A stretch of DNA of 64,000 bases from Candidatus Nitrosotalea sinensis (GTDB lineage: Archaea > Thermoproteota > Nitrososphaeria > Nitrososphaerales > Nitrosopumilaceae): positions 1 to 64,000 of the forward strand of contig NZ_FRFC01000005.1 in the NCBI RefSeq assembly GCF_900143675.1. The letters are read 5' to 3'. The position numbers and the translations under genes were made by a program. The notes under the pieces are model-generated. The model made no database searches. It was given only the letters and a program-made list of their open reading frames with translations, and was not told the origin of the DNA. This document shows, one piece after another, positions 46,905 to 51,167 of the stretch. Position 1 is the first letter of the stretch; each line of letters starts with the position of its first letter.

Positions 46905-47438
46905 TTGAAAGGAGAATTACTTGAGAACAGAATAATTGTAAAAAACATAGATGATTCACGTCAGCTTTTTGTTTCAGGATATTACGGAAAACCAATAGGA
47001 ATAACAAAACCAAAACCTGAAGAGATAAACGTTCCATTAATTTTGGATCTGATTGAAGGATATTATCTACAAGAAAAATCAAGATTGAGAATTTTTCAAT
47101 CTAAGAGACAAATAATGTCAAAAGAGCTTCTCGAAATATGCAGAAGAGAATATCACAACTTTGATAAAAAATATACAGTGTACAAAGACTTTAGAGATAA
47201 AGGATACATTGTAAATCCAGGAATCAAGTTTGGATGTGATTTTGCAGTATATCAAAAAGGTCCAGGAATTGATCATGCACCATATTTGTTGCAAGTGTAC
47301 AATTCAACAGACACAATATCAGCAACAAGCATAGTATTAGCAGGAAGACTTGCTACAACAGTAAGAAAACAATTCATTTTAGCAATACCAAAGGGCAACA
47401 AAGTTGATTGTTTAGCTTTGGACTGGTGGAGAGCGTAA
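46905..47438 (+). CDS. endA: tRNA-splicing endonuclease (EndA)
   Basis: A 177-residue enzyme cutting bulge-helix-bulge introns from pre-tRNA. The catalytic triad is visible: Tyr in DFAVYQKG, His in GIDHAPYLLQV and Lys in TTVRKQFILA. The length matches a single-domain homotetramer-type subunit. The start is a TTG at 46905; the next possible start is far inside, and the A/T-rich ACTAAAATCA lies about 27 nt upstream. It converges with the next gene with a 27-nt overlap. Confidence 0.92.
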   Translation: MKGELLENRIIVKNIDDSRQLFVSGYYGKPIGITKPKPEEINVPLILDLIEGYYLQEKSRLRIFQSKRQIMSKELLEICRREYHNFDKKYTVYKDFRDKGYIVNPGIKFGCDFAVYQKGPGIDHAPYLLQVYNSTDTISATSIVLAGRLATTVRKQFILAIPKGNKVDCLALDWWRA

Positions 47439-47813
47439 TTTACTTTTAATGTGATATGCTATCCTATCATATACTGCAAACAATTCTTTTGTAATAGAAA
47501 ATTCATATCTATCTTTCCATCCTCCATGAATACGTACACCCCCATTAGTCGGTTCTACAAATATCTCTGCGTCTTTATACGAAAGCCTTGTCATCAAAGT
47601 ACTAAGTTCATTATCAGAACTCAGAGTATCTGCAAGTTCTCCGCCTGACCATTTTACTCCAGTCACTTTTTTTGTTGCAAAATGACCTTTTGTTTGAGGA
47701 TTAGATTTAGCAAGGAAACTTTCATCGGGAAGATCATGTTCTGTTTTGACTATAAAGTGAGCCTGGAATCTATCTTGTGCGCCCCATGGCATCGGATTTA
47801 GATCTTGTGTCAT
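47412..47813 (-). CDS. Conserved hypothetical protein
   Basis: A 133-residue soluble protein: AQDRFQAHFIVKTEHDLPDE, then TKKVTGVKWSGGELADTL and beta-strands AEIFVEPTNGGVRIHGGW, ending in a helix YDRIAYHIKSKL. No family recognised. It lies 4 nt downstream of the 78-residue gene, probably an operon with it. Its last 27 nt overlap endA. Confidence 0.68.
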   Translation of the reverse strand: MTQDLNPMPWGAQDRFQAHFIVKTEHDLPDESFLAKSNPQTKGHFATKKVTGVKWSGGELADTLSSDNELSTLMTRLSYKDAEIFVEPTNGGVRIHGGWKDRYEFSITKELFAVYDRIAYHIKSKLRSPPVQS

Positions 47814-48185: not shown

Positions 48186-49973
48186 ATGTTAAAGTTCCAG
48201 AATAAAATAGTTGTAATAACAGGAAGTGGAACAGGGATAGGAAAAGCAATTGCCATAAAGTTTGCAGAAAATGGCGCAAACATAGTCATACTAGGCAGAA
48301 GAAAAGAACCACTTGAAGAAGCTGCAAAAGAACTGGAACAAGTAATTTCCAGAGTTAAGAGTAATGCATTTGTAAAAATTTTCCCAGGTGTAGATGTAAG
48401 TGATGAGGAAGGAGTTTCAAAGATGTTTGAGGACCTCAAAAAAACCCATGGTGCAGTAGATGTAGTAGTAAACAATGCAGGAGTATCAGGTCCAGTTACA
48501 TGCTTTGCAAATGCCCCCATGTCAGAATTTAGAAGCACCGTAGGAATTCATCTCACAGGTACATTTTGGACCTCATCGCAAGCAATCAAGACCATGAAAC
48601 CAGGTTCAAAGATCGTAACAATATCAACATTCTTTACTGAAGAAAGACCATACGAACAAAGACCATATAGATTCCGCAGTCCATATACTGCATCCCAAGG
48701 CGCAAAGAATCGACTTGCAGAAGCAATGTCATGGGAAATCACAGATAAAGGAATAATATCAATAGCCACAAATCCGGGACCAGTTCATTCTGACAGGATT
48801 TACAAGACAGTATATCCAAAAGCTGCTGCAGAATTTATGAGAGTCAGCGGTTTTGAAAGTCTTACTCCAGAAGAAGTAGAATCAGTAAATGCAGACATCC
48901 TTCCCTTGTTGGGTGAAAACGACACTATAGTTAAAGAGGGAATTGCAAAAGCAGCATCAAAACTTTCACAGTCAAAATCAATCACAGCAGAAGCAGACAT
49001 ACAGAAACTAAATGTAACAATCTCAGCACTGCTTGCAAAGATACAAAGCATTGCAGAAAAGGTTCAAAATAACACAAGTAAAATGATTGCAGATGAACAA
49101 TTTCTCACACAACAACAAGTTGCAGAAACTGTTTTGATGTTAAGTGATGATAACATATCAAAGATTCTAAACGGAAAAGTCATACCAGGTGACAGAGTGT
49201 TTTACCCAGTTAAACCACATATTTCGTGTTCAATACCAGACACTCAAACAAACTTTAGTTCAAAGATAACAGTATTTGCATTAGATGCAACCGATGAAGC
49301 AGATGTTGCAAGAACTGAGTTTCTCGCACAGAAAATTGAAAGTGCCGGAGGGAAAACAGTCATACTCATTTCAAAGACAAGCCCCAAGATTGCAGAAGAG
49401 AAATTATCGAAATTTCATTCACATGTAATGGATTTGACAAATCAAGAAAATGTGAAAAGAATGCTAAATACAGCTACTCAAAAGGTAGGCCCAATAGGAA
49501 ATATAATTTACATAACAGGAAAAGTTCCACAGACAAGCAAATTGGTAGACCTGACAAGAAGTCAGTGGGACAACCTAGTAGATAAATTCATCAACACACC
49601 TGCCATATTTTTACAGGAATCCTTAGGCATGTTTGTCCCAGGAGGAGCCAAGAATCCACCATTATTCAAAAACAAAGAGGGCACCATGATAATAATAGGA
49701 CCAGATATGCCGTCAGGAGGAAAGGTTTCAGGTGCAGATAGAGCAAGAGTCGAAGTATTTAGAGGAGCATTAAGACCATTTGCCACCACTGTAAATCAAG
49801 AGTTGAGCGATGTGCTAAAATCAAAACTCAGAGCATATTTGATTTTGCCTGGTAGCGTAGACGGTACAGAACCAAATAATGAAAATGTCATGAGGGCAAT
49901 CAACTATCTTACATCTGGAAAAGCAGTAAACAATGCAGAGATAATCTACTATCCAGATGAAGCAAGAACTTGA
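48186..49973 (+). CDS. Double-SDR protein, half-MCR-like
   Basis: A 595-residue protein of two Rossmann modules. Module 1 (1-240) is a short-chain dehydrogenase with cofactor motif TGSGTGIG and NNAGVSG; the catalytic motif is Tyr167-T-A-S-Gln171, so Lys of YxxxK is replaced by Gln. A helical linker (about 250-320) leads to NGKVIPGDRVFYPVKP and a second, degenerate SDR lacking TGxxxGxG. This SDR, linker, pseudo-SDR order resembles each half of the Chloroflexus bifunctional malonyl-CoA reductase. The TGATG overlap couples it to a hotdog protein. Substrate unknown. Confidence 0.8.
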   Translation: MLKFQNKIVVITGSGTGIGKAIAIKFAENGANIVILGRRKEPLEEAAKELEQVISRVKSNAFVKIFPGVDVSDEEGVSKMFEDLKKTHGAVDVVVNNAGVSGPVTCFANAPMSEFRSTVGIHLTGTFWTSSQAIKTMKPGSKIVTISTFFTEERPYEQRPYRFRSPYTASQGAKNRLAEAMSWEITDKGIISIATNPGPVHSDRIYKTVYPKAAAEFMRVSGFESLTPEEVESVNADILPLLGENDTIVKEGIAKAASKLSQSKSITAEADIQKLNVTISALLAKIQSIAEKVQNNTSKMIADEQFLTQQQVAETVLMLSDDNISKILNGKVIPGDRVFYPVKPHISCSIPDTQTNFSSKITVFALDATDEADVARTEFLAQKIESAGGKTVILISKTSPKIAEEKLSKFHSHVMDLTNQENVKRMLNTATQKVGPIGNIIYITGKVPQTSKLVDLTRSQWDNLVDKFINTPAIFLQESLGMFVPGGAKNPPLFKNKEGTMIIIGPDMPSGGKVSGADRARVEVFRGALRPFATTVNQELSDVLKSKLRAYLILPGSVDGTEPNNENVMRAINYLTSGKAVNNAEIIYYPDEART

Positions 49974-50446
49974 TGAAGAAATTTTCTCAGATAGACATAG
50001 GTGCAGAATTTTACGCAGAAGTTGTCATAAGTGCATCAGATCTTGATGCATATTTGACATTTTCAAGAATTAAAAATATAGTATATGAAAATGCAAAACC
50101 ATCAGAACAAGAAAAAAAGATGGTATCAGGAAGAGCAATACTGTCAAGAATAGAAGGAGAATTTACAAGATTAGAGGAGATGTACGGTAATCTTTTGATT
50201 TTCTATGGAATAGACGGAGACCCAAATTGGAACAACAGGCAGACAAGATTTCTAAAGCCAGTTTATACTGGAGACATATTAAAAGTGAAATATAAGATTT
50301 CAGAGAAACGAGAACTTGATGATCAGTTTGGACTGCTGGGAGTAGATTTTGAAGCTGTCAATCAAGATAACAAAGCAGTAGTAATTTCAAACAGAAACCT
50401 GTATAGAATTAAAAAGGACCCGCCAATGCATCAAGAACCAACTTGA
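49973..50446 (+). CDS. Hotdog-fold (MaoC-like) protein
   Basis: A 157-residue single hotdog domain: the central segment VSGRAILSRIEGEFTRLEEM takes the helix position, and TRFLKPVYTGDILKVKYKISEKR with LLGVDFEAVNQDNKAVVISNR forms the sheet edge, as in MaoC dehydratases. The D-x4-H catalytic motif of hydratase-2 enzymes is not evident, so dehydratase activity is doubtful. I start at the ATG overlapping the SDR stop. It converges with the TauE gene with a 38-nt overlap. Probably a subunit or partner of the double-SDR protein. Confidence 0.78.
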   Translation: MKKFSQIDIGAEFYAEVVISASDLDAYLTFSRIKNIVYENAKPSEQEKKMVSGRAILSRIEGEFTRLEEMYGNLLIFYGIDGDPNWNNRQTRFLKPVYTGDILKVKYKISEKRELDDQFGLLGVDFEAVNQDNKAVVISNRNLYRIKKDPPMHQEPT

Positions 50447-51167
50447 GTGCAGATACACCAAGTATAACAGTCACAAACAATCGTAGTCTTCTCTCATTAA
50501 CACGCGTAGACAACTTACTTCCCACCAAACCACCAAGAAATGATCCTATTGAAAGCATCCCGGCCTCAAAATAGTTAGGATGTCCCATAAGAGAATGCAC
50601 TATCATTCCAGATGCTGCAGTAAACATCAAAATGAATTGAGATGTGGGTGCGGCAAGTTTCATGGACAACCCAATTGCAATCACCATCAAAGGTACAAAC
50701 ACAGTTCCCCCTCCAATTCCAAACAGGCTTGATACTATACCTCCAAAAAAGCTCGCACCAGCAGAAAGCAACATTACCTGTTTTGATAAATTATACTCCC
50801 GTGATTCCATTTTTCTTCTCATGTAGATGTACACTCCCGATGCAATCAGGACAGCTCCAAACAACAATTTGAACACAGGTGGCGAAACTATGTCAGAGGC
50901 ATATGCTCCAACAATAGTTCCAGGTATTGACAACAGTGCAAGTTTTATTCCAAGCGAATACACAATTCTTTTTTGTTTTGCATAGGAGACAGATGAGGCA
51001 ATGGAATTACTAAAAGCTGCAAACAAACTATTACTTGCAGCAAGAGTGGGAGAGAATCCAAAAAATGTAAGTACTGGTACAACTACAAAACCTCCTCCAA
51101 GTCCAATCATGGAACCAATTACACCAGCTACAAAACCAAGCGGTAATAACCACCAATACTCTAGCAA
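50409..51167 (-). CDS. TauE/SafE-family membrane exporter
   Basis: A 252-residue transporter with about 7-8 hydrophobic helices in two related halves. Each half begins with a conserved Gly-rich loop: GVIGSMIGLGGGFVVVPVL (residues 15-33) and GIVSSLFGIGGGTVFVPLM (about 135-155). Family members export sulfite, sulfoacetate or similar anions. No sulfur gene is adjacent. The 3' end overlaps the hotdog gene antisense. Confidence 0.88.
   Translation of the reverse strand: MLEYWWLLPLGFVAGVIGSMIGLGGGFVVVPVLTFFGFSPTLAASNSLFAAFSNSIASSVSYAKQKRIVYSLGIKLALLSIPGTIVGAYASDIVSPPVFKLLFGAVLIASGVYIYMRRKMESREYNLSKQVMLLSAGASFFGGIVSSLFGIGGGTVFVPLMVIAIGLSMKLAAPTSQFILMFTAASGMIVHSLMGHPNYFEAGMLSIGSFLGGLVGSKLSTRVNERRLRLFVTVILGVSALKLVLDALAGPF

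Follow-up and report, generated by a model that had tools for sequence, protein, structure and literature searches.

Ammonia-oxidising archaea are very abundant in the ocean and in soil, and the locus described here raises the question of which of their genes encodes the malonyl-CoA reductase of the thaumarchaeal 3HP/4HB cycle (step 2). The statement in the original prediction that this enzyme is without a certain assignment agrees with the literature: a 2015 study found steps 2, 3, 6, 10 and 11 without an assigned gene, of which step 3 was then solved as Nmar_1110 (PMC4510362), malonyl-CoA reductase was again given without an identified gene in 2018 (PMC6038301) and 2020 (PMC6964070), the former leaving succinyl-CoA reductase (step 10) likewise unassigned, and a 2026 list of markers for the thaumarchaeal variant gives no malonyl-CoA reductase (PMC12894919). 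These papers of 2015–2026 name no thaumarchaeal gene for this enzyme, and a proposal may exist in others. Within a stretch of 64,000 nucleotides from Candidatus Nitrosotalea sinensis (contig NZ_FRFC01000005.1, hereafter the window), a gene for a 595-residue protein had been proposed, from its likeness to one half of the Chloroflexus malonyl-CoA reductase (MCR), as a candidate for the missing step. We regard this protein as the best present candidate for step 2, its activity being a prediction. We give an even chance to the reading that it acts by itself as an acyl-CoA reductase of the MCR type and is most likely the NADPH-dependent malonyl-CoA reductase still lacking from the cycle, perhaps also active on succinyl-CoA.

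Residues 1–210 of the protein are recognized as an SDR (Pfam adh_short, 5e-40), and comparison with NCBIfam found no listed family at its cut-off. Directly 3' lies a second open reading frame, 49970..50446 (+), of 158 residues, the hotdog gene, for which the ATG at 49973, sharing one base with the upstream TGA stop, is the more likely start (Table 1). Upstream of the pair are genes for a tRNA splicing endonuclease, a PhoU-like protein and a protein without known function, and downstream are a convergent TauE/SafE permease, homoserine dehydrogenase and a PUA protein; none of the neighbours in the window is a recognizable carbon-fixation gene. When a conserved cluster was sought in 20 related loci, only the window's own neighbours recurred. 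The TauE/SafE-family permease (50409-51167, −) is encoded close by at 15 of the 21 SDR loci compared, in all four families that carry the SDR gene, and has stayed beside it more persistently than the hotdog gene has; a functional link and inherited gene order are both possible. A gene for 133 residues upstream (47415-47813, −), which has no Pfam family, is beside the SDR gene in 12 of the 21 loci.

Table 1. Features of the gene pair, in window positions. A1 is the alignment of 32 homologues from four families.
Feature	Position	Strand	Remark
Half-MCR-like 595-residue protein: SDR module, helical insert, pseudo-SDR module	48186..49973, stop included	+	ATG start
TGSGTGIG dinucleotide-binding motif, residues 12-19	48219..48242	+	T12, G13, G15, G17, I18 and G19 invariant in A1
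Arg38	48297-48299	+	Aligns with MCR Arg616 (NADP+ contact); invariant in A1
Thr148	48627..48629	+	Aligned with Thr165 (MCR-N) and Ser731 (MCR-C), substrate carbonyl; invariant in A1
YRFRSPYTASQGAK: Tyr161-x2-Arg164-x2-Tyr167, Gln171 for catalytic Lys, invariant Lys174	48666..48707	+	80/80 homologues
GPVHSDR; Arg204 aligns with MCR Arg785	48777..48797	+	Invariant in A1
Helical insert, residues 205-303, at position of the MCR-C extra domain	48798..49094	+	AlphaFold2 model, alignments
Pseudo-SDR module, residues 355-595	49248..49970	+	AlphaFold2 model, alignment A1
MaoC-like hotdog protein, start codon over upstream stop	49973..50446	+	Lineage-restricted

Full-length homologues of the 595-residue protein at 46–90% identity occur in four archaeal families, and the half-MCR observation is thus far beyond chance. 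The AlphaFold2 model built from A1 has a mean pLDDT of 88 and a pTM of 0.88, and reveals the order of SDR, helical linker and pseudo-SDR that had been claimed from the letters: a Rossmann module (residues 1–204) is followed by an all-helical insert (205–303), then by the stretch that completes the first module, and finally by a Rossmann-like module (355–595). The last of these has neither GxxxGxG nor YxxxK and is without catalytic residues; its invariant residues in A1 are G527, R530-P531, T535 and Q538-E539. In a Foldseek comparison with all PDB chains, the best 25 of the 50 matches listed were all MCR (E 8e-25 to 2.5e-18), present as N half, C half or whole, from Chloroflexus, Roseiflexus or a third bacterium, with TM about 0.6–0.75 to single halves and 15–18% identity over ~640–700 alignment columns including gaps. 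The best non-MCR SDR had an E of 2.5e-13 and covered about half the chain, and of the 50 listed only MCR matched the structure over its full length. Among these matches no other SDR family fits better, and the predicted structure indicates that the MCR resemblance noted in the original prediction truly extends over the whole chain. The half-MCR interpretation stands, and it gains strength from the MCR halves heading the Foldseek matches and from the invariance of the substrate-holding residues.

The evidence for these residues comes from structures and mutants of the Roseiflexus enzyme (RfxMCR), in which the CoA-acylating half holds the malonyl end through Tyr743, Arg746 and Tyr749, the other half holds malonic semialdehyde through Thr165, Tyr172, Arg175 and Tyr178, triad mutants lose activity and mutation of Arg785 causes a marked decrease (PMC10470521). 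With MCR numbering anchored on the Roseiflexus sequence, the positions Thr165/Ser731, Tyr172/Tyr743, Arg175/Arg746, Tyr178/Tyr749 and Arg785 map to T148, Y161, R164, Y167 and R204 of the archaeal protein, all of them invariant (A1, n = 32), and its invariant Asp70 aligns with the NADP-contacting MCR Asp651. Both MCR halves have the YxxRxxY pattern, and none of 21 other SDRs does. The likeness that had been noticed between GPVHSDR and the GPVEGDR of MCR is confirmed, with Arg204 invariant. The CoA-binding Arg799 and Arg1164 of MCR are without counterpart, the aligned positions being Ala/Lys and Asp in a region that aligns poorly.

The carboxylate-holding residues determine what kind of substrate is bound but not how long its chain is, and it is conceivable, if doubtful, that the protein, as a reductase of the MCR type, acts mainly on succinyl-CoA (step 10), malonic semialdehyde or a different short acyl compound with a carboxylate. 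Its active site is nearest to that of MCR-N, which reduces malonic semialdehyde, the archaeal group stands beside MCR-N in the all-column tree (96/78), and succinyl-CoA reductase, too, is given without an assigned gene (PMC6038301). However, N. maritimus already has a known malonic semialdehyde reductase in Nmar_1110 (PMC4510362), and the insert is far longer than that of MCR-N: from GPVxxDR to the next conserved SDR stretch there are 83–111 residues in the archaeal proteins, 41 in MCR-N and 147–219 in MCR-C, whose extra domain at this position binds CoA. The insert thus recalls MCR-C and the motif residues (ISTxF, SDRI), together with the all-column tree, recall MCR-N, and as far as the sequences indicate the protein is best assigned to neither half.

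The original prediction had also pointed to YTASQ in place of YxxxK. This reading is correct and is not sequencing noise, as Gln171 at the position of the catalytic lysine, and Lys174 one helix turn on, are identical in 80 of 80 homologues. With the essential lysine replaced by Gln throughout, catalysis is less than certain, and an unlikely alternative is a pseudo-enzyme or acyl-CoA sensor, in which the MCR fold would bind malonyl-CoA and/or NADPH as a scaffold or regulator, hydride transfer having been lost with the lysine. In RfxMCR, K182A and K753A strongly reduce or abolish activity, K753A abolishing it (PMC10470521). Against such a loss, Tyr167, Thr148, the whole carboxylate site and Lys174 are all invariant, and a pure binder would have no obvious need for Thr148 and Tyr167 together with NADP-binding residues. 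The spacing of Tyr167 and Lys174 admits one further reading, since Tyr-x6-Lys resembles the active-site spacing of FabI: an enoyl-CoA reductase, here the acryloyl-CoA reductase of step 6. Both residues are invariant with six between them and step 6 is without an assigned gene in the literature, but in the MCR alignments it is Gln171 and not Lys174 that takes the position of the lysine, so the FabI resemblance is formal; moreover, acryloyl-CoA has no carboxylate for Arg164 and Arg204, and there are eight medium-chain dehydrogenases that could serve this step. We consider this reading very improbable.

How firmly the protein is related to MCR by descent was assessed with trees and profile comparisons. 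In the SDR tree from all columns the archaeal proteins cluster with both MCR halves, apart from 21 SDRs (99/94), whereas in a tree without the motif columns (longest branches left out; glucose dehydrogenase, 4iuy and a tandem hydroxyacyl-CoA dehydrogenase added) the same group has an AU p of 0.36 and is neither favoured nor refuted. The 99/94 clade thus leans on the active-site columns, its resolution being lost once these are removed. Raw sequence score was rejected as proof of kinship, the top PDB rank of whole MCR being the sum of its two halves; by single-domain score, glucose dehydrogenase reaches 79 bits vs 74 for MCR-C. The pseudo-SDR module was likewise rejected as an MCR marker, as in HHalign it matches SDRs in general no less closely than MCR. 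The case for common descent with MCR lies in the architecture and the active site; these sites may instead have converged, and even then an acyl substrate with a carboxylate would be indicated.

The distribution of the gene was surveyed at two levels. Matches were found in 50 of 300 genomes of the phylum, all in the window's order; of 400 genomes in the class, 269 matched, and every one of these belongs to the four families. A plasmid search with the 595-residue protein gave only two weak, generic SDR matches. Every well-assembled ammonia-oxidiser examined has the gene. As the Pfam AMO family PF02461 missed archaeal AmoA, PF12942 was used in its place, and among 21 genomes AmoA was found in all six that carry the SDR gene and in none of the 15 that lack it, these being G394 and G398 together with 13 members of other families in the order or class. 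The co-occurrence by which the original prediction was to be checked is seen, in that the gene goes with ammonia oxidation and hence with the 3HP/4HB cycle. This is consistent with a role in the cycle and is not proof of one, as clade, ammonia oxidation and cycle are confounded. The 4-hydroxybutyryl-CoA dehydratase (PF11794) is wider, with homologues in 301 of the 400 genomes, and the SDR gene thus follows the ammonia-oxidising lineage rather than the dehydratase. PF11794 was set aside as a marker of the cycle, being too broad and found in AmoA-negative families too.

G394 and G398, fragmented 93% complete MAGs from the window's own family, are without SDR gene and AmoA and keep a 4-hydroxybutyryl-CoA dehydratase homologue; this may reflect assembly gaps, or ammonia oxidation and a cycle step lost together. 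Among the ammonia-oxidiser genomes examined, the gene is otherwise absent from a few, and these are MAGs that are incomplete or fragmented (e.g. G512, 330 contigs). Families f56, f62-f64, f67, f71 and f72 have PF11794 homologues and no half-MCR gene, and are AmoA-negative where tested.

Sulfolobales use a paralogue of aspartate-semialdehyde dehydrogenase (Asd) as malonyl-CoA reductase, and the thaumarchaeal enzyme might by analogy be another gene, either the Asd homologue or an SSADH-like aldehyde dehydrogenase, with the SDR doing something else. When families that reduce or form thioesters were sought in the window genome, one Asd, one ArgC and two aldehyde dehydrogenases were found. The sole Asd is a full-score member of TIGR00978, which, with homoserine dehydrogenase encoded in the window, argues that it has a biosynthetic duty. 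For the SSADH-like enzyme, KEGG assigned succinyl-CoA reductase to Nmar_1608 (PMC4510362), of which we infer L138 to be the counterpart. At E ≤ 1e-50, however, such an enzyme is missing from G108, G338, G352, G373 and G427, ammonia-oxidiser genomes of which three are on a single contig and all of which keep the SDR gene; this favours the SDR, and it is improbable that the SSADH-like enzyme serves the cycle universally. As steps 2 and 10 are in addition non-homologous between Sulfolobales and Thaumarchaeota (PMC7845616, 2021), we judge it quite improbable that either of these genes fills step 2 instead, with the SDR doing something else.

The coupled hotdog protein had been taken to suggest an acyl-CoA substrate. 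Its fold is confirmed, with a Foldseek match to MaoC-like 1q6w (TM 0.7) and a weak match in sequence, but its standing as a working partner is not upheld. The catalytic motif of MaoC hydratases is Asp-x4-His, and this was not seen in 15 aligned sequences, which have FSRIKN / VSGRAI instead. The gene is directly 3' of the SDR gene in most of the window's family and missing in several deep members, missing in the f2 and f57 genomes tested and unlinked in some of f3. In G257 a remnant of 32 codons with in-frame stops (C46:21479-21571) lies directly 3' of an intact SDR gene, where the partner appears to be decaying. An obligate partnership was therefore rejected, as most of the other families of ammonia oxidisers have the gene elsewhere or lack it, and the hotdog protein cannot be required for the core function, being missing, unlinked or fragmentary in several lineages.

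For the SDR as malonyl-CoA reductase, the residues suggest the following mechanism. NADPH would be bound by the SDR module and its ribose held by Gln171, with Lys174 or a water taking over the role of the lysine, while Tyr161, Arg164, Tyr167 and Arg204 would hold the free carboxylate of malonyl-CoA and the helical insert and pseudo-SDR module close over the CoA. Hydride transfer from NADPH to the thioester carbonyl of malonyl-CoA (or succinyl-CoA) would release CoA and malonic semialdehyde, the latter then being reduced by the known malonic semialdehyde reductase of the Nmar_1110 type. The chief competitors of this mechanism are the readings with a different substrate and with a pseudo-enzyme. 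A more specific proposal, which we hold tentatively and at slightly less than even, is that this is the long-sought malonyl-CoA reductase of ammonia oxidisers, working without the SDR lysine (Tyr-x3-Gln-x2-Lys) and derived from, or sister to, one half of a bacterial MCR. If so, the Chloroflexus bicycle and the thaumarchaeal cycle would both have drawn on one fold for this step, and the gene would provide a marker, a compact reductase for synthetic carbon-fixation cycles and an instance of SDR chemistry without the canonical lysine. A single, near-universal and ammonia-oxidiser-specific candidate with a malonate-type site makes the malonyl-CoA reductase gap testable.

Of the known systems, the malonyl-CoA/succinyl-CoA reductase of Sulfolobales shares the reaction proposed for the thaumarchaeal SDR but has an unrelated fold, being an Asd paralogue, whereas the window genome has a single Asd homologue. 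The MaoC-like proteins (1q6w, 4ffu and the MaoC domain of PaaZ) share the hotdog fold at TM about 0.6–0.7, although MaoC hydratases carry Asp-x4-His, which was not seen in the downstream protein, and the gene for the latter adjoins the SDR gene in no more than part of the window's family. MCR from Chloroflexus and Roseiflexus (8hjw, 8hi4, 8j2b, 8hi5, 8hi6; Rcas_2929) differs in having two halves where the archaeal protein is one, in the lysine that is Gln in the archaea, and in Arg799 and Arg1164, which the archaea do not keep. Compared half by half, MCR-C has the longer insert and CoA-binding arginines without archaeal equivalents, and resembles the archaeal protein in having an insert of some length after GPVxxDR and a similar 'VA.(A)TV..L(A/S)D' stretch following it; MCR-N has YxxxK intact and the short, 41-residue insert, and shares ISTxF with its Thr, Y-x2-R-x2-Y and SDRI after GP. 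Common to the archaeal protein and MCR as a whole are the order of SDR, insert and pseudo-SDR, the overall fold, Tyr-x2-Arg-x2-Tyr, the triad Thr or Ser, GPVxxDR and the NADP-binding Arg and Asp.
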